Source: Alphaproteobacteria bacterium
GTDB taxonomy: Bacteria; Pseudomonadota; Alphaproteobacteria; Reyranellales; Reyranellaceae
NCBI GenBank assembly: GCA_017307275.1
Contig: JAFKFK010000009.1
Span: 124,001-188,000, forward strand
Direction of reading: 5' to 3'
DNA length: 64,000 bases
The notes under the pieces: model-generated
The model's input: the letters and a program-made list of their open reading frames with translations, nothing else
Told to the model about the DNA's origin: nothing
The model's database searches: none
Program-made: the position numbers and the translations under genes
Part shown: in pieces, positions 42,605 to 50,659 of the stretch
How the letters are laid out: each line of letters begins with the position of its first letter
How positions within the stretch are numbered: the stretch's first letter is position 1

Positions 42605-43243
42605 CTATTTGGTCCCGAAGAGACGGTCACCCGCGTCGCCGAGCCCAGGAACAATATACCCGTGATCGTTGAGTTTTGCATCGATCGCTGCCGCGAACAC
42701 TTGCACATCTGGATGAACTTCGGCGAAAGCCCGAGCGCCCTGCTCCGAACCCAGGATGCAAATGAACTTGATCCTCTTGGCGCCGGACTCCTTCAGGCGA
42801 TCGACGGCGGCGATCGCCGAGTGCGCGGTGGCCAGCATGGGATCGCAAACGATGACGTCGCGGTCCGAGATGTCCTGCGGGATCTTGAAGTAATACTCGA
42901 CCGCCTGAAGCGTACGTGGATCGCGATAGAGGCCGACATGGCCCATACGCGCCAACGGCACGAGATCGATGATGCCCTCCGCAAGTCCGAGGCCTGCGCG
43001 CAGGATCGGCACCACCACCAGCTTCTTGCCGTCGAGCAACGGCGCCTTCATCGCCTCGATCGGCGTTGCGATATCGCGCTCCACCAAGGGCAGGTCACGC
43101 GTGGCGTCGTAGCCCAGCAGCAAGCCCATCTCGCGCAGCAGCCGGCGGAAATTCGTGCTCGACGTCTCCTTGTCGCGCATCTTGCTGAGCTTGTGCTGCA
43201 CCAGCGGGTGGCTCACGACATGGATCGAGTGTGGCAAAGACAT
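42605..43243 (-). CDS. upp: Uracil phosphoribosyltransferase
   Basis: 212 aa. PRPP-binding loop [14 protein letters not shown] and the uracil-binding C-terminus [13 protein letters not shown] are clear. It converts uracil and PRPP to UMP. In the URC pathway UMP-type ribosylation of uracil is a required step, and here upp directly follows the urc4-like gene (15-bp gap), supporting a catabolic rather than only salvage role. Confidence 0.94.
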
Positions 43244-43258
43244 TGACGAAGACTCCCC

Positions 43259-44434
43259 TCAAAACACCGTGCCGTCGCTTTCTATGGCGATCGGCGGTCC
43301 TCCGCCCGGGCGACGCTCCGCCGCGAGCTTGCGTCCGGCAAACCAGGTACCGGCCTCCAGAACTTTAACCAACGGCAGACGCGTGGCATCGAGGCCGAGA
43401 TGGCCGCGCACATGCTCGGCGATCCGGTCGAGCAGCATCACCGTCAGCGCCCGCCATTCGACAATGGCCTCGTCACCCGGCTTGAACGCTTTCTCCAGCA
43501 GAGCGCGCTGCTTGGGCCGCAAGGCCCCGGCATCGACCAGGAGCCCGCCGTTGCGATACTCGGGCAGGCCGGTCAACGTATCGAGCGCAGTGACGCGCAG
43601 CCCAGCCCCTTCGATCGGCTCGACCAGCGAATAGCTCATCCATTGCGAGAGCTTATGGAAGGGGACCAGTCCAACGGCCGGATGCTCCCAGACGTCACCG
43701 AGCTCGGTCGGCCAGATCGGCGAGAGCTTGTCGAGCACGGCGGCCAGGATCGATTCAGCCTTCACCTCGCTACTGCTCGCAACGACATCGAACAGCGCAC
43801 CCGGCCGGTCGAGCCCCGTACCGCCCAGCTTGCGCAGCAGCTCGGCGCGACCTTCCAGACCGAGCAGTGGATTGTGCGCCTTCACCTGGAAACCCATGGC
43901 GATGTCCATGGGTGTCAACGCCGCGAGACGCTCGGCATCGACCCGCAGCGGATCGCCCTTGGCGTCGCGGCTGAAGGCGCCGTTGGCGAACATGTGCAGG
44001 CTCGCCACACCGAGGCCCTCGGAGCGCGCGTAGGTTTCGCCAGTTCCCGGCTCGCGATAACTCCAGGCAGTGCCGGCACCGGCATCGAGCAGCACAGACA
44101 CGACCGCAAGGTCCATGCGGCGGCGCGCGATCTCTTCGGGCGGCAGCCCCTTCAGCCGTTCGGCCAGCGCACCCCAGCGATCGCGGCCTCCGACCTCGAA
44201 GTGCCGCCAGCGCGAGTGGAAGGGAATGGCTGCCGGGTTGGGAAAGCGCTCCCGTGCCACGGCAAGCGTCGCTTGCACCGCGGCTTCCAGCCCGTCTGCC
44301 GACAGGGAGAACCAGTGCGACTGGCCATCCTCGACGTGCTTCAGCACCTTGGCCGAGCGCTCGCGAATGGCCGCCGGCGTGCGGAGATAGGCAATCGAAT
44401 CTGTCGTCGGACGATCGCGCCCCAATGACGTCAT
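43259..44434 (-). CDS. urc4: DUF1688 protein, uracil catabolism Urc4
   Basis: 391 aa. DUF1688 features: begins IAYLRTPAAIRERS and includes PFHSRWRHFEVGGRDRW, and a C-terminal WRALTVMLLDRIAEHVR. Urc4 is required for uracil use as nitrogen source in the yeast Lachancea kluyveri and is found in bacteria with Urc1. The biochemical step is not settled. Overlaps the urc1 stop by 4 bp (ATGA) and is followed by upp, an expected grouping. Confidence 0.85.
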   Translation of the reverse strand: MTSLGRDRPTTDSIAYLRTPAAIRERSAKVLKHVEDGQSHWFSLSADGLEAAVQATLAVARERFPNPAAIPFHSRWRHFEVGGRDRWGALAERLKGLPPEEIARRRMDLAVVSVLLDAGAGTAWSYREPGTGETYARSEGLGVASLHMFANGAFSRDAKGDPLRVDAERLAALTPMDIAMGFQVKAHNPLLGLEGRAELLRKLGGTGLDRPGALFDVVASSSEVKAESILAAVLDKLSPIWPTELGDVWEHPAVGLVPFHKLSQWMSYSLVEPIEGAGLRVTALDTLTGLPEYRNGGLLVDAGALRPKQRALLEKAFKPGDEAIVEWRALTVMLLDRIAEHVRGHLGLDATRLPLVKVLEAGTWFAGRKLAAERRPGGGPPIAIESDGTVF

Positions 44435-45666
44435 TCGTCCAACCCCCTGCCCTTGGGCTTGGCCAGTTCCTCGACGGCTGGCTTCTTAGGCGTGAAGTAG
44501 CCGGCGGCTTTCTTGGCATCCATCTCGACCTGGGCATCGGCAGGGATCAATTCGTCGGGAATCGGCACCTGCTCGACCACCTCGATCCCCTGTTCGCGCA
44601 AGGCATCGGACTTCATGTTGCTCATCGAGGCGAAACGGTCGATGCGAGCGATGCCAAGCCAGTGAAAAAGGTCAGGCATCAGCTCCTGGAAGCGCATGTC
44701 CTGCACGCCGGCGACACACTCAGTGCGGTTAAAGTATTGCGCCGCCGAATCGCCGCCGGGCTGACGCTTGCGCGCATTGTAAACCAGGAACTTGGTGACC
44801 TCGCCCAGCGCCCGGCCTTCCTTGCGATTGTAGATAACCACGCCGACGCCACCCTTCTGTGCCATCTCGATGCAAATCTCGATGCCATGCGCGAGATAGG
44901 GCCGGCAGGTGCAGATGTCGGAGCCGAAGACGTCGGAGCCGTTGCATTCGTCGTGGAGGCGGCAGGCGATCCTGGTTTCCGGCTTGCCGAGCTTCTGCAC
45001 GTCGCCGAAGAAATAGATCGTCGATCCGCCGATCGGCGGCAGGAAGAGTTCGAGATCCATGCGCGTGACGAGTTCGGTGTACATGCCCCCGGTCTGCTCG
45101 AACAGGGTGCGGCGCAGGTCGGTCTCCTTGACGCCGAAGCGCTCGGCGATTCCGGGCAGCCACCATACCGGTTCGACCGCAGCCTTGGTCACCTTCACGT
45201 CGCCCGACGAACTCAGGATGTCGTTATCGGGTTTCAATCGCCCGGCCGCGATGGCGTCGCGGATCTCCGGCATATGCACATGCGCCTTGGTGACGGCGAT
45301 GGTCGGACGGATATCCCAGCCTGCCGCCAGTTTGTCGGCAAAGACATCGGCCACCATGTGGCCCCAGGGATCGAGCGACACGATCTTCTTCGGGTCGAAC
45401 CAGCTCTCAAAGGGACCGATCGGCTCGGCAGGCGAGGTGTTGGTAAAGTCCGGGCGGTGGCCTGGCTTCAGCTCCTGGGCCGCGATCGCCAGCGCGCGAT
45501 AGATGCCGTAGCTGCCGGAATGCACGCCGATGGCGTTGCGTCGCGCGGAATCCGCCACCGTCCCGACAACAGGCCCTCGAATGGCGGGGTCGCGCGCGCC
45601 CCATACCACCGGAGGGGCCGCCTGGCCGCCCTGGCTGGGATGGGTATTCAGTCTGATGTGAGCCAT
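44431..45666 (-). CDS. urc1: GTP cyclohydrolase II homologue, uracil catabolism Urc1
   Basis: 411 aa, much longer than RibA-type enzymes (about 200 aa). The C-terminal half carries the GCHII zinc site in LHDECNGSDVFGSDICTC and the catalytic Tyr/Arg region YNRKEGRALGEV. The N-terminal ~180 residues are typical of Urc1. By genetics, Urc1 acts in degradation of uracil, perhaps opening the ring of a ribosylated uracil derivative. No other riboflavin gene is near, which favours Urc1. First gene of urc1-urc4-upp(-MAPEG). Confidence 0.87.
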   Translation of the reverse strand: MAHIRLNTHPSQGGQAAPPVVWGARDPAIRGPVVGTVADSARRNAIGVHSGSYGIYRALAIAAQELKPGHRPDFTNTSPAEPIGPFESWFDPKKIVSLDPWGHMVADVFADKLAAGWDIRPTIAVTKAHVHMPEIRDAIAAGRLKPDNDILSSSGDVKVTKAAVEPVWWLPGIAERFGVKETDLRRTLFEQTGGMYTELVTRMDLELFLPPIGGSTIYFFGDVQKLGKPETRIACRLHDECNGSDVFGSDICTCRPYLAHGIEICIEMAQKGGVGVVIYNRKEGRALGEVTKFLVYNARKRQPGGDSAAQYFNRTECVAGVQDMRFQELMPDLFHWLGIARIDRFASMSNMKSDALREQGIEVVEQVPIPDELIPADAQVEMDAKKAAGYFTPKKPAVEELAKPKGRGLDE

Positions 45667-45767: not shown

Positions 45768-46166
45768 CTACTTGGCGCCCCTGGTCTCCTGAAGGTAATC
45801 GACGATGGCCGCGACATCGGCCTCCGCCACCGGCGCCTTGTAGGCATGGATCATCTTTTCGACGATGCCCGTCCAGGCGGCCTTGGAGAGGTCGGGCTGG
45901 GTCAGCACCATGCCAGCGGAATGGCAGGACAGGCAGTTGGCGGCGATGGCGTCGGCCTTGGCACCGCCCGGAAAGACCACTTCGCTGACCGGCAGGTCGA
46001 CCGACACCGACTTCAAGGCAAAGCCCGTGGCCGGTGCCGTTCCCGAGGATGCAGAGGTCGCCGCAGACGGCGGCGGAAGCTGGACCGCAGGATGGCCGAT
46101 CAGGGCAAGCACCATCCCCGCAACGATGGGAACGGCAAAGCTAACGGCGCCCATGGAGATCTTCAT
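45768..46166 (-). CDS. Monoheme c-type cytochrome, SorB-like
   Basis: 132 aa with an N-terminal signal/anchor (VPIVAGMVLALIG). Single heme site ANCLSCHSAG; the axial Met is probably in MVLTQ or KMIHAY. It starts 3 bp after the molybdoenzyme gene, matching the SorA-SorB order of sulfite dehydrogenase from Starkeya, where the cytochrome takes electrons from the Mo centre. Longer N-terminal linker than SorB. Confidence 0.85.
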   Translation of the reverse strand: MKISMGAVSFAVPIVAGMVLALIGHPAVQLPPPSAATSASSGTAPATGFALKSVSVDLPVSEVVFPGGAKADAIAANCLSCHSAGMVLTQPDLSKAAWTGIVEKMIHAYKAPVAEADVAAIVDYLQETRGAK

Positions 46167-46169
46167 CCG

Positions 46170-47405
46170 TCAGGCCACCTTCACACGTACGGTCTCGATG
46201 CCATTGTGCATGAACCCGCTGGGGTTCCAGTTGTTCGCCATCGGTTGAGCAAGTCCGTCGTCGTTGGTGCAGCGGACCATCAACGCGAGATCGCCAACAG
46301 TCGGTGTTACCTCCGCCTGCCACTGCCGGAAGCTGTACTTGCCTTCATCGCGACCAAGCACCGTCGGTAGCCAGGTGACGCCACCATCGATTGACAGGTC
46401 GACGGCCTTGACGCCGGCCACACCACCGAAGGCGATACCGCGCACCAGGTTCTTCACACCGGCCTTCAAAGGCTCACCGGTCCTGAGGTTGGTGATGAAG
46501 GAGCGCGGCACCATTTTGGTGATGGGCACCATCGCAACGCCAGCCTGACCTGGCTTCATGTCCGCGCCGGGCGTGTCGGGAATCAGATACGCGTTCTTCG
46601 TCCAGAAATTCTCGTCGGGCGCCGACAGCACCTCGATGCGGTCGAGCATCTTCACCCAGTAAGTCGAGTACCAGCCCGGCACCACGAGGCGCAGGGGAAA
46701 GCCGTTCAGCAGCGGAAGCTGTTCGCCGTTCATCGCGTACGCGATCATCACTTCGCCGTCGCGGGCATGATCCAGCGACAGCGACTTCATGAACTTCGGC
46801 GCGTCGCTCACCACCGGCTCGTCGAGCCCGGCAAAGCGCACGGCGACGGCGCCAGGCTTGACGCCGGCACGATCCAGCACGTCGCGAAGCTTCACGCCCA
46901 TCCACTTGGCATTGCCCATCGCGCCGTTGGCCCACTGCGCGCCGGCAACACGAGGCTCCGTAAAGCCGCGCGAATTGCCCGAACATTGATTGACCGCCGC
47001 CAGTTCGACCCGCGGCAGGCCGTCGACGATCTCCTTCAACGACAGCGATAGTTCCTTGTCGACGTGGCCCCGCACGGAGAGCCGGAAGGTATTGACGTCG
47101 ATCTCGGTCGGGATCACCGCCCAGTGCCAGCGCACGTAGAAAGCATCGTTGGGCGTGAAGACGCCGCGATCGAAGACTTCGAATGGCGTTTCGAGCAGCG
47201 GCGGGCGGGTGCGCTGCAGGATCATCGGCCCCTTCTGGGGGAAGGCCTTGGTGATGACCCGCTTGTCAGGGCCGCCCGGCAAGGGCAGATCAATCGTGGC
47301 AGGCGCTGATGGGGTTTGCGCCCAGGCGGCTCCCGACACGAGCATGAGGCCTCCCGTGCCGGCTTGCGCCAGAAAGGCCCGTCTCGTTGATGTCTTGGTA
47401 TTCAC
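46170..47405 (-). CDS. Sulfite dehydrogenase-like molybdoenzyme, SorA family, Tat-exported
   Basis: 411 aa. Twin-arginine signal STRRAFLAQAG with the cut after AWAQ. The molybdenum-ligating Cys is in VNQCSGNSRG; later RLVVPGWYSTYWVKML and a C-terminal Mo-co dimerisation domain (LSIDGGVTWLP) are typical of sulfite oxidase-fold enzymes. It likely oxidises sulfite to sulfate in the periplasm and passes electrons to the adjacent cytochrome. Close relatives with other substrates (SoxCD, YedY) are less similar. Confidence 0.87.
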   Translation of the reverse strand: MNTKTSTRRAFLAQAGTGGLMLVSGAAWAQTPSAPATIDLPLPGGPDKRVITKAFPQKGPMILQRTRPPLLETPFEVFDRGVFTPNDAFYVRWHWAVIPTEIDVNTFRLSVRGHVDKELSLSLKEIVDGLPRVELAAVNQCSGNSRGFTEPRVAGAQWANGAMGNAKWMGVKLRDVLDRAGVKPGAVAVRFAGLDEPVVSDAPKFMKSLSLDHARDGEVMIAYAMNGEQLPLLNGFPLRLVVPGWYSTYWVKMLDRIEVLSAPDENFWTKNAYLIPDTPGADMKPGQAGVAMVPITKMVPRSFITNLRTGEPLKAGVKNLVRGIAFGGVAGVKAVDLSIDGGVTWLPTVLGRDEGKYSFRQWQAEVTPTVGDLALMVRCTNDDGLAQPMANNWNPSGFMHNGIETVRVKVA

Positions 47406-47654: not shown

Positions 47655-47963
47655 ATGAAGTCGTTGGGTGTGGGTCTTCTACTGGTTGCGATGGCTGCGG
47701 GACTGGCCTGGGCGCAGCAGGCGGCGGCACCGCCACCTGCTCAACAGGTGCCGTCGAAGATATGTCTCTCGCAGTACACGCCGATGCCTGGCCAGTCGGC
47801 CGCTGGGCTGATCACTGCAGGCTATGACATCAAGGCCGCTGTGCCAGGCGGTCTGTGGGTTCAGAAGGATCGCGAGGTCTACTACTGCAATTCCGGACGG
47901 CCGCTCGAGACCGAGCCGCTGTGCTGGCGTTTGCGGGAGCCGAGCGCCGGCAACTTCTGCTGA
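47655..47963 (+). CDS. Small secreted four-cysteine protein (paralogue 1)
   Basis: 102 aa. Signal peptide to about residue 20 (LAWAQ), then a short Pro/Ala-rich stretch. The mature part has four Cys: KICLSQY, YYCNSG, LCWRL and the final Cys. It shares with the product at 48541 the core IKAAVPGGLWVQK-x-x-x-VYYCNSGR. I do not recognise a named family. Start at 47655 is the only one giving a signal peptide. It lies 52 bp before a cupin gene. Confidence 0.78.
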   Translation: MKSLGVGLLLVAMAAGLAWAQQAAAPPPAQQVPSKICLSQYTPMPGQSAAGLITAGYDIKAAVPGGLWVQKDREVYYCNSGRPLETEPLCWRLREPSAGNFC

Positions 47964-48015
47964 CCAGGGAGCTCAATAAGGGCATGCTCGCCTCCAACGA
48001 CAAACGGAGGATGGC

Positions 48016-48468
48016 ATGCCTGACCTGTTCCCCACGACCGAAGAGGTCACGCAGGAGAAACTGAGAGACGATGCCGCCGCAGGTGGCCTAAGCATCGTCA
48101 ATCATGTCGGACCGGATTCGTTCAAAAAGGACGGGTTGCGCCCGTTCTTCGAGTACCGCCCGCTCGGCCTCAAGGAGCTGACCGGCGGCAAGGTTGGTGC
48201 GCACGTGATCCGCGCTGTCCCCGGCCAGCATCCTGATGCGCCCCGCCATAGTCACGCGCTCCAGTTCCAGTTCGTTTACGTGCTGAAGGGTTGGGCGATC
48301 TTCGAATACGAAGGCTATGGCCAGCACAAGCTGGTCGCGGGCTCGACCGTCTATCAGCCGCCCGGCGTGAAGCATAAGGAGATCGACCATTCGGACGATC
48401 TCGAGTTGATCGAAATCACGATGCCTGCGGACTTCGAGACGACGGTCGAGAACCAAGCGTCTTCCTGA
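48016..48468 (+). CDS. Cupin domain protein
   Basis: 150 aa, no signal peptide. Cupin motif 1 is seen as PRHSHALQFQFVYVLKG, with HxH and the later Glu position replaced by Gln/Phe, and motif 2 as PPGVKHKEIDHSDDLELIEI. A metal site with three His is plausible. Small single-domain cupins can be isomerases, dioxygenases or ligand binders; function unknown. It lies between two paralogous small secreted protein genes. Confidence 0.85.
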   Translation: MPDLFPTTEEVTQEKLRDDAAAGGLSIVNHVGPDSFKKDGLRPFFEYRPLGLKELTGGKVGAHVIRAVPGQHPDAPRHSHALQFQFVYVLKGWAIFEYEGYGQHKLVAGSTVYQPPGVKHKEIDHSDDLELIEITMPADFETTVENQASS

Positions 48469-48540
48469 AGACCAAGCCAGAGTTATTGCACCATAGTGGC
48501 GAGCATTCTAAGATTCCCCATACCGGACTGGGGGAATGTG

Positions 48541-48843
48541 ATGAAATTGCTAGGCGTTCTTGGCCTGGCCTGCTTGGCATCAGGGGTTGCCTTCGCGCAA
48601 CAACCCGGTGGGTCTCCACCTGCCGGCTCCAAGGCCGCCACCTGCCAGTCGCAGTATGCCGAAGCCCCTGCCTATTCGTCGGCTCTGCTGCTGAACACTG
48701 GCTTCGAGATCAAGGCCGCCGTTCCCGGCGGCTTGTGGCTGCAGAAGCAGAAGGACGTCTACTTCTGCAATTCCGGCCGAGCCGCCGACGGCGACATGCT
48801 GTGCTGGAAGCTGCGCGTGCCCGTGAAGGGCCAGCCCTGCTAG
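48541..48843 (+). CDS. Small secreted four-cysteine protein (paralogue 2)
   Basis: 100 aa with signal peptide (cut after AFAQ). Mature Cys in ATCQSQY, YFCNSG, LCWKL and a final Cys align with those of the 47655 gene, and IKAAVPGGLWLQK is nearly identical. The start has GGGGGAATGTG before it. Two disulfides are expected. Its converging neighbour is a D-aminoacylase gene, 6 bp away. No family recognised. Confidence 0.78.
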   Translation: MKLLGVLGLACLASGVAFAQQPGGSPPAGSKAATCQSQYAEAPAYSSALLLNTGFEIKAAVPGGLWLQKQKDVYFCNSGRAADGDMLCWKLRVPVKGQPC

Positions 48844-48849
48844 CAGCCT

Positions 48850-50547
48850 CTAGGCACCGTGCCGCAGCAGTCGGCCTGAATGTGTGTTGGTCGGCTTGTC
48901 GTCGCGCATCGTGACCTGGCCGTTGACCAGAATGTACTTGTAACCCGAGGCGCGCTGCACGCGACGCCATTCGCCGCCCGGCAGGTCGTGCGCGATCTCG
49001 TCTGGCAGCACTTTCAATCCGTCATAGTCGTAGATCACGATATCGGCCGGTGCGCCCTTCTTCAGCACACCGCGACCGCGGAACCCTGCCACTTCGGCCG
49101 GCAACGCCGACAGACGCCAGTGCACGTCTTCCAGACTCAACATCCCGTGCTGACGCACGACCTTGCAGATCGTTTCCGTGGGATAGCGGCCCGCCGTCAG
49201 GAATTTGGTATGGGCGCCGCCGTCGGAAACGCCGAACAGGATGTAGGGATCGTCGACCAGCTCTTTCAGATACTCGATGCTGCCGTTGGGGGGCGCAGCG
49301 AAGAACTCCGTCTCGAGATTCTCTTCGACGGCCATGTCGAGCATCACGTCGACCGGATGTTTGCCCATCTTCTCGCCGGCATGGGCCAGCGTGTAGTCGA
49401 GCCACTTCTTGTTCTTCTCTGGCTTGGGGCCAATGATCGCTATCTGCGGCAGCGGTCCCGTCGCGGTGATCGGCAGGTTCTCGCGCAAGGCCTGGCGGCG
49501 TGCCGGATCGGCGAGCTTGGCCAGGCGCTCGGCGCGTGTGCCGGTCGTAGCATCGCACCAGGCCTGCGAATCGTCGAACAGGTTCCAGTCTTCGAAGGTG
49601 AAGGTGAAGCCCGCATCGGTCGTGAGCCCCTGCCCGACGACGCGGATGCCGCGCTCGCGGCAGCTCTTCAGCCACGCCAATTGACGACGATGGATCTCCG
49701 GCCGGTGATCGAAGGCCTGGATCACGTTCATGATCATCGGCCGCCCACTGATGCTCGACAGCTCCTCGTAGAAGGTGCGGTCGCGGGCATTGTCGCCCGA
49801 AATCAGCAGCATCTGCATGAAGCCTTCGTTGCGCTGGGCAAGCACGCGGGCGAATTCGCGGCAGGTTTCGTCGTGCATGACGTCGGTCGGCATCGGCGTG
49901 CCGTCATAGTCGCGCTGCACCGCAGACGGGCCGGTCGGCAGCATCCGCTGGGCCGACCAGCCGCAGGCGCCGGCGTCCATGGCCTCGTGCAGCAGGCGCT
50001 TCAACTCGGCGTGCTGCTCGGGCGTCGGCAGCTTGCCGGCTTTGGCGGCTTCGAAGCCCATCACCCAGATCAGCAAGGGCGAGATCGGCACGTAGGGCAG
50101 GATGTTCACGGCCTTGGGCGCGGCGTCGACGCTGTCGAGGAATTCCGGGAAGGTCACCCAGTTCCACGGCATGCCTTCCTGCATCGAGGCCATGGGAATC
50201 GCCTCGACCCGTGTCATCGACATCATGGCGCGCTCGCGCTCCGCCGGGCGCACCGGCGCGAAGCCGAAGCCACAATTGCCGATAACCACCGAGGTGATGC
50301 CGTGCCACGACGAGAGCGTGCAGTAGGGATCCCAGAAGAGCTGCGCATCGTAGTGGGTATGCAGATCGACGAAGCCCGGCGCCACGATCAGGCCGCCGGC
50401 GTCGATCACCTCATCGGCTTCGCCGGCACCAATCTGGCCGATCTCGGCGATCACGCCGTCCTTGATGCCGATGTCGCCGCGGAAACGTGGCAGGCGGCTG
50501 CCGTCCACGACCATGCCTCCCCGGATCACACGATCGAAACGCGCCAT
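48850..50547 (-). CDS. N-acyl-D-amino-acid deacylase family amidohydrolase
   Basis: 565 aa from ATG 50547, GTGGAGGAAGC upstream. DLHTHYDAQ (HxH metal site) with the D-aminoacylase-type GNCGFGFAP, and FGVSDGGAHTKF near the end (late Asp). Family enzymes release free D-amino acids or process other N-acyl compounds with zinc. No signal peptide. Two abutting inverted repeats lie in its upstream region (50660-50715). Confidence 0.88.
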   Translation of the reverse strand: MARFDRVIRGGMVVDGSRLPRFRGDIGIKDGVIAEIGQIGAGEADEVIDAGGLIVAPGFVDLHTHYDAQLFWDPYCTLSSWHGITSVVIGNCGFGFAPVRPAERERAMMSMTRVEAIPMASMQEGMPWNWVTFPEFLDSVDAAPKAVNILPYVPISPLLIWVMGFEAAKAGKLPTPEQHAELKRLLHEAMDAGACGWSAQRMLPTGPSAVQRDYDGTPMPTDVMHDETCREFARVLAQRNEGFMQMLLISGDNARDRTFYEELSSISGRPMIMNVIQAFDHRPEIHRRQLAWLKSCRERGIRVVGQGLTTDAGFTFTFEDWNLFDDSQAWCDATTGTRAERLAKLADPARRQALRENLPITATGPLPQIAIIGPKPEKNKKWLDYTLAHAGEKMGKHPVDVMLDMAVEENLETEFFAAPPNGSIEYLKELVDDPYILFGVSDGGAHTKFLTAGRYPTETICKVVRQHGMLSLEDVHWRLSALPAEVAGFRGRGVLKKGAPADIVIYDYDGLKVLPDEIAHDLPGGEWRRVQRASGYKYILVNGQVTMRDDKPTNTHSGRLLRHGA

Positions 50548-50659
50548 GCTTCCTCCACTACTCTTCTGCTTTTGTCGAAAAGCGTGGGCGGCGTACCAAA
50601 ACCTGTCAACGCCGGTGCCACCGCGTCGCAAAATCACGGATTGCGGGCCAGCCTCTGTT

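Follow-up and report, generated by a model that had tools for sequence, protein, structure and literature searches.

Four-cysteine exported proteins flanking a Reyranella cupin gene: a probable branch of a wider, nameless exported family

In the stretch of 64,000 nucleotides analysed here (the window), a cupin gene stands between the genes for two small proteins, which we call A and B. Very probably, these are real paralogues that are exported and that form one branch of a wider protein family. Our reading of the whole, held tentatively and at slightly less than even probability, is that A and B are disulfide-stabilised periplasmic accessory or binding proteins, a Reyranella branch of that wider family encoded in a recurrent cupin cluster. 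The binding or accessory role is itself a conjecture, one that we consider possible and hold less firmly. The analysis joins orphan exported proteins, not linked by any of the models scanned, in one probable family with one compact domain and one probable disulfide. Its main interest lies in a copy that some rhizobia encode within their complex I operons, where genetics is tractable and the domain's job could be learned. Within Reyranella, the picture of a pair around a cupin is replaced by that of a recurrent cluster of three families.

RESULTS

Two related four-cysteine proteins flank a cupin gene

Gene A (P0001) lies at positions 47655..47963 and gene B (P0002) at 48541..48843, with the cupin gene (P0003) between them at 48016..48468. 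All three are on the forward strand, separated by intergenic gaps of 52 and 72 bases, and may be co-expressed. A is 102 amino acids (aa) long, with cysteines at residues 37, 78, 90 and 102; B has 100 aa and cysteines at residues 35, 76, 88 and 100. A six-frame search of the whole genome aligned the two at 52% identity over their full length (E 2.5e-27) and found no third copy at a meaningful score in the 5.3-Mb assembly, the next matches (E 0.14 and 0.28) being at the level of chance. Common to both are the motifs IKAAVPGGLW, YCNSG/FCNSG and LCW and a final cysteine. An earlier note on this DNA had described two related exported proteins of about 100 aa with such motifs around a cupin gene, and that description stands, with export indicated by apparent signal peptides.

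Both proteins begin with an apparent Sec signal peptide ending in A-x-A (residues 1 to 20 in A and 1 to 19 in B, called by eye and from the hydropathy maximum, without a dedicated predictor), which is followed by a P/Q/A-rich linker and then by a conserved domain. Judged by this layout, A and B would be exported to the periplasm. Each mature protein has four cysteines; B has an additional one at residue 11, within the hydrophobic stretch of the signal peptide, where the orthologue at locus L039 (R. aquatilis) has serine. We rejected a bacterial lipoprotein as a candidate for either protein, since there is no lipobox cysteine at +1 and the first conserved cysteine lies 16 to 17 residues into the apparent mature protein. 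The B orthologue of R. massiliensis 521, the nearest named relative, is 91% identical.

A promoter scan found no sigma-70-type promoter and an Rfam scan no RNA family; a terminator scan returned two overlapping terminator-like sites against 1.1 expected.

A and B match no characterised family

Searches of A and B against Pfam, NCBIfam and PHROGs returned no match, and sequence searches of the PDB returned chance chains only. No characterised family was matched, in agreement with the earlier note, whose author knew of none. Eight Pfam families obtained with 21 members of the A/B family were rejected, as each was matched by one or two members and none was shared (best E 0.0057, for DUF6234 with one member). 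PepSY_2 was matched by 1 of the 21 members at E 0.15, which is within noise.

Structure searches with the A and B models likewise gave no family that stood out: the best Foldseek E-values were 0.41 and 0.84 against the PDB and 0.09 against viral models, and the best Z-scores were 3.9 and 4.2. Low in the lists stood the N-terminal dimerisation domain of DsbC, at noise level (Z 2.4 to 2.6; 48 residues and rmsd 5.5 and 5.4 for the chains at Z 2.6 and 2.5), a likeness that we take to lie in the order of a helix and then an antiparallel sheet. Unlike DsbC, A and B have no thioredoxin domain following, and no sequence relation between them and DsbC was shown.

Among the literature matches listed for Reyranella secreted proteins and genomes and for the rhizobial nuo operon, no title or opening of an abstract concerned the A/B family; nor was anything found on the nuoD/nuoE combination, Reyranella cupins, URC genes or SMc01916 (presumably a locus tag). 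The A/B family is without a model or structure in the libraries scanned, and as a four-cysteine variant of a nameless small exported family it is new.

The four-cysteine family is conserved within Reyranella

A profile search at E 1e-3 placed family members in 37 of the 76 genomes of the order, at 62 places: all 37 are among the 65 genomes of the window's genus, and the 11 genomes from outside it have none. Three of 39 initially matched genomes (G043, G046 and G049) had been dropped from this count, their matches (E 4e-5 to 8e-4) lying inside long frames and not being confirmed by the profile. The 41 named loci come from Reyranella or from bins whose labels go no further than Rhodospirillales, Rhodospirillaceae, Alphaproteobacteria or Proteobacteria.

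Our alignment and tree comprise 47 of the 50 family frames. The motif filter missed the A copies of L037 and L038, and the upstream part of L068 sits in another frame; these three frames, which also carry all four cysteines, were left out. The four cysteine positions hold cysteine in 46, 47, 46 and 46 of the 47 aligned members, the exceptions being one Cys-to-Arg change in L040 and a copy in L046 that is shortened by an in-frame stop. Identical in all 47 members (mature B numbering) are Q19, I38, A41, W47, Q49, C57, N58 and G60. Among four genomes, dN/dS (Nei-Gojobori, own script) was 0.015 to 0.129 for A, 0.107 to 0.178 for B and 0.025 to 0.086 for the cupin gene. Since these values are well below 1, A, the cupin and B are genes under purifying selection.

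The tree program flagged long branches, and the deep branching order is uncertain. A clade of 19 rows (support 98/93) brings together A and the single copies beside cupins, 18 of the rows lying upstream of the cupin and that of L054 downstream; B falls in a clade of 8 rows (100/98). A third clade, of 14 rows (100/99), contains members with a C-terminal tail that are encoded elsewhere in the genome, and the stretches around them hold neither a cupin gene nor the PPC-like gene described below. Because the A, B and 14-row clades are distinct, the split between A and B predates the genomes compared, and the two look like old, separately inherited paralogues rather than a recent duplication in the window's genome. 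A few cupin-less members (L041-L046) are not placed by the tree; several of the same neighbour genes are kept at their loci.

Within the 14-row clade, a sub-group of 11 rows (100/98) has the same large gene upstream at every locus. The sub-group consists of L047-L048, L050-L051, L053, L055, L057-L059, L061 and L065, and in L051 the large gene encodes an M1 aminopeptidase. In-frame stops within the matched stretch were seen in four-cysteine copies at L046 (G009:C6), G014:C28, G017:C250 and G032:C37; such copies may be pseudogenes, start-site effects or assembly errors.

Predicted fold and disulfide pairing

AlphaFold models of B (from 47 sequences) and A (from 36 sequences) agree on a strand, a helix and four further strands, at moderate confidence (mean pLDDT 78.6 and 77.4; pTM 0.64 and 0.62). 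The N-terminal linker is of low confidence, the middle blocks exceed a pLDDT of 90 and the C-terminal part goes down to 53-83. The central cysteines, which in B are Cys76 and Cys88 (codons at 48766..48804, forward strand), end strand 4 and begin strand 5 in the models, and a disulfide between them is likely for this reason; in MAFFT alignments they also line up with both cysteines of the two-cysteine relatives described below. The outer cysteines, at the ends of the domain, could form a second disulfide. The case for that pairing is weakened by L040, where the first cysteine is lost and the last is kept.

Two-cysteine relatives occur outside Reyranella

When searched against 385 genomes of the class, the Reyranella profile matched G315 (E 2.2e-4) and G126 (E 0.01), in both cases in a small, exported frame with GYEIRA or GYEIKA, LQK and two cysteines. 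With 385 genomes searched, these two matches alone do not clearly exceed what chance would give. Once they had been added, the profile picked up five others, G395, G195, G298, G235 and G383, with E-values from 3.1e-9 to 2.7e-5. The enlarged profile matched at least seven non-Reyranella genomes at E 0.01 among the 385, and at least five of 160 genomes drawn from the phylum, two from the class and three from elsewhere in the phylum; these counts are lower bounds, as at most 12 candidates per genome were scored in the class draws and 29 in the phylum draw. A single-protein search with one two-cysteine relative returned only itself, in 289 and in 59 genomes, and the spread of the family is therefore taken from the profile searches. 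On plasmids, tblastn with B gave no match, and likewise with the L115 and L169 relatives. We dropped the weak matches L103, L105, L106 and L121, which have no convincing small exported frame, and the partial matches L120, L122 and L123 (E 0.02 to 0.04). Within the limits of these searches, the wider family is scattered and not common.

In profile-profile comparisons, the Reyranella-only alignment A1 matched the two-cysteine sets A5 and A10 at 97.8% and 97.9% probability, and these two non-Reyranella sets matched each other at 97.6%. The controls scored low: against A5, the cupin and each of three further exported families of Reyranella stayed between 0.05 and 2.1%; A1 reached 19% against one control family, through signal peptides alone. 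Both A5 and A10 were gathered by iterated profiles that held Reyranella rows, and part of their similarity to A1 comes from this selection. The main check on it is a search of the whole Reyranella genome with A10, which contains no Reyranella sequence: the two window genes came first and second, at the modest E-values of 0.006 and 0.008, with the third match at 0.31. Membership of the wider family is well supported by these comparisons; A and B are probably no orphans, and would belong to a scattered, nameless superfamily of exported two-cysteine proteins.

The relatives from other Alphaproteobacteria (L102, L104 and L115-L119) and from outside the class (L169-L171) have the same order of motifs as A and B, G[YF]E[IV]K-like, LQK-like and C...C, but lack the outer cysteine pair; in MAFFT alignments their two cysteines fall on the central pair. 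The first central cysteine, after LQK, is invariant in alignments A3, A6 and A10. The second is invariant in the MAFFT alignments A3 and A6 and does not fall in one column in A10, although every relative read has such a cysteine, at varying spacing. Profile-profile alignments miss this residue, that of A1 with A10 stopping before it and that of A1 with A5 pairing it with another residue. As hhalign does not carry the second cysteine, the putative shared central disulfide rests on the MAFFT alignments.

No Pfam model was matched above cut-off by L102, L104, L115, L116, L118, L169 or L170, and no NCBIfam model by L115, L118 or L169. Since the neighbours of the various relatives are unlike (cupin, pepN, nuo and FUR/ABC-3), the neighbourhood points to no single function. 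In L102 the relative's gene stands after ABC-3 and ABC_tran genes resembling those of metal importers, and in L115 it stands after a FUR-family gene.

A relative lies inside rhizobial nuo operons

On pSymB of Sinorhizobium meliloti Ak57, a protein annotated as hypothetical (UIJ96251.1) is encoded between nuoD and nuoE, its gene overlapping the nuoD stop by one base. It resembles B in its signal peptide, the stretch LLxxGYEIKAAV..G, the LQK motif, two cysteines near the C terminus and a similar size (31% identity over 83 columns). In contrast to A and B, it has two cysteines instead of four and neither the N-terminal CxSQ stretch nor the C-terminal cysteine, and its setting is a complex I operon whereas theirs is a cupin cluster. 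A two-cysteine gene stood between nuoD and nuoE in all five loci examined (L167, L168, L172, L173 and L174). Three of the loci come from Sinorhizobium, for which four records were found, and the other two from genomes whose nuoD shares 88 to 92% identity with the S. meliloti gene. Among the phylum-draw genomes, at least four that belong to the same taxonomic family were without a match. Because of these and of the close likeness in nuoD, the link to nuo genes may be confined to one genus.

The cupin gene as the apparent anchor of a loose cluster with a third family

The cupin has 150 aa, with an HxH motif at residues 78 and 80 and a later histidine at residue 120; an alignment of 7 orthologues shows no change at H78, H80 or H120. 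It scores 34.9 bits against Cupin_2 (PF07883), above the Pfam gathering cut-off of 27.2, and a profile of the gene with 6 orthologues (n=7) matches PDB 2o8q, a hypothetical protein (E 1.4e-38). The cupin is unrelated to A and B. A weak resemblance to ureidoglycine aminohydrolase (E 0.0034) reached 16.9 bits against an NCBIfam cut-off of 200. No signal peptide was seen in the cupin by the same crude test as for A and B, and because A and B appear to be exported, the cupin and its flanking proteins should be in different compartments. Viral contigs scanned with the cupin gave no relative.

To the left of A, on the reverse strand, are genes for a SorB-like cytochrome (45768-46166) and a SorA-like sulfite dehydrogenase (46170-47405), both named by their best NCBIfam matches, which are below cut-off. 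This divergent pair (45768..47405) recurs at L034-L036 and L140, is absent from the other loci and is not part of the A-cupin-B unit. Beyond it, also on the reverse strand (42605..45666), are genes for uracil phosphoribosyltransferase, a DUF1688 protein and GTP cyclohydrolase II, which are frequent neighbours of the cupin in Reyranella; we take this row to resemble the URC uracil-degradation set. The right-hand neighbour is a convergent amidohydrolase gene (Amidohydro_3; 48850..50637, reverse strand).

A close cupin orthologue (E 1.6e-71 or better) is present in 51 of the 76 genomes. With linkage defined as lying within 1 kb on the same strand, four-cysteine genes are found on both sides of 9 of these cupins, upstream only of 13, downstream only of 1 and beside none of the other 28; put differently, 23 of 51 cupins have a member nearby, and 32 of the 62 four-cysteine genes are so placed. 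The gap between the matched stretches of the upstream gene and the cupin is 49 to 85 bases in 22 of 22 cases. The earlier note would have counted it as a refutation if the cupin never occurred with these genes in relatives; that ground falls away, and the co-occurrence is no accident. The note's proposal that the pair around the cupin forms a functional unit held in part: the A-cupin-B order is kept in 9 of the 76 genomes, but it is just one of several layouts, with 28 cupins lacking a member and 9 genomes carrying four-cysteine genes without a cupin orthologue (one of the nine is only 60% complete).

Of the 28 cupins that lack a close four-cysteine gene, we examined the regions of 20, among them that of G048, where a member lies about 2.8 kb away. 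The GTP cyclohydrolase II gene known from the left flank in the window was near the cupin in 16 of the 20, twice at a distance of more than 3 kb. Because the cupins without members usually keep this neighbour, it is the cupin that seems to anchor the locus, with A and B apparently its accessories. The link between the cupin and the four-cysteine genes is real but loose.

A third gene, which we call PPC-like, encodes a small exported protein with a weak likeness to the PPC domain (E 0.17, below cut-off). It gave 56 matches over the 76 genomes, two of them weak, and no copy was found in the window's genome at E 1e-5. Of the 56, 38 are near a cupin by the same 1-kb, same-strand definition (16 of these are also near a four-cysteine gene), 6 are near a four-cysteine gene only and 12 near neither. 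Seen from the 51 cupins, 18 have a PPC-like gene only, 14 have both, 9 have a four-cysteine gene only and 10 have neither, so that 41 have one or both exported genes; the PPC-like gene is the commonest exported gene beside the cupin, at 32 cupins versus 23 for the four-cysteine gene. Another member of the trio is a neighbour of 44 of the 56 PPC-like genes and of 38 of the 62 four-cysteine genes, and at the six cupin-less loci L041-L046 the two exported genes adjoin. There is, we think, about an even chance that the exported proteins keep together as a set, the best evidence being this co-placement of the PPC-like, four-cysteine and cupin genes. PPC-like genes beside a cupin or four-cysteine gene were seen at L037-L039, L041-L046, L054, L060, L063-L064, L067, L070-L074 and at least 15 of L131-L149; L039 has A, B and the PPC-like protein together.

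DISCUSSION

In the explanation that we prefer, A and B would be a four-cysteine branch, restricted to Reyranella, of small Sec-exported Pseudomonadota proteins. In each, a signal peptide would be followed by a short, disordered linker and then by a single compact domain (strand, helix, four strands), held by an old disulfide, Cys76-Cys88 in B, to which a second, Cys35-Cys100, would probably have been added in Reyranella, tying the N and C termini together. In the periplasm, this stable domain would bind another protein or a small ligand. We judge it to be probably non-catalytic, there being no conserved residue set of catalytic type in the 47-member alignment. The encoding cluster would be built round a conserved cytosolic cupin of the metal type and, in many relatives, would include the PPC-like exported protein. 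The cupin would be a cytosolic protein that works alone, probably within the catabolic context of its neighbours, and not an obligate partner of the exported proteins. The absence of a fold match, an annotated relative and a detected promoter counts against this explanation, as does the moderate confidence of the models. For the role of receptor, inhibitor or envelope sensor suggested in the earlier note, we found no direct evidence.

A closer partnership, in which the cupin serves one pathway with A, B and the PPC-like protein and the exported proteins, for example, capture or sense a compound for the cupin, beside the uracil phosphoribosyltransferase/GTP cyclohydrolase module, would account for the short, even gap upstream of the cupin in 22 genomes, for the single clade, apart from B, formed by the cupin-linked members, for the 41 cupins with at least one exported gene, for the frequent divergent catabolic module and for the cupin's faint likeness to ureidoglycine aminohydrolase. 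We nevertheless consider it unlikely: many cupins have no four-cysteine gene within 1 kb and ten have neither exported gene, four-cysteine genes occur in genomes without the cupin, the compartments differ, and the shared position may be mere shared descent. Rather less likely is a broader proposal, that the family supplies periplasmic accessory or assembly factors for membrane or envelope machines that differ by lineage, serving complex I in rhizobia and, with a second disulfide and a duplication, the cupin/PPC cluster in Reyranella. A respiratory role, in which the wider family acts in the periplasm to help build or stabilise complex I or some other complex of the membrane and the Reyranella copies are a relocated branch, is improbable. 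It draws on the position between nuoD and nuoE in five of five loci and the one-base overlap in S. meliloti Ak57, but no nuo genes adjoin the Reyranella copies, the neighbours differ in other relatives, and the five loci may represent one genus (nuoD at least 88% identical), with same-family genomes lacking a match.

A periplasmic metal-handling protein, for instance in a zinc-starvation response, might be suspected from the ABC-3, ABC_tran and FUR-family genes that precede two of the relatives. Those neighbours come from only two genomes of one family (f11) and none was seen beside the Reyranella copies, the domain has no conserved histidine and its cysteines look disulfide-bonded, and we regard this role as quite improbable. 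Even less credence goes to a secreted antibacterial protein or effector in tandem copies: A and B are small, exported, cysteine-rich, patchily distributed and present in several copies, but they are under purifying selection with no diversification seen, hold a conserved position among metabolic genes, match no PHROG and, in our judgement, have no immunity-like partner. That they are spurious open reading frames or a chance resemblance, as short genes without annotation models could be, has practically no probability and is refuted by the A-B similarity, by members in 37 genomes and by the dN/dS values. Our preferred explanation, an exported accessory or binding domain encoded in a cupin-anchored cluster, is the one to which we give most weight.

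One further family of small exported proteins, marked by GCAC and ICW/LCW motifs, is encoded near these genes; the one protein scanned had no Pfam match above cut-off. Its genes lie on the opposite strand of the cluster at L037-L040, L064, L066-L067, L069 and L072-L073.
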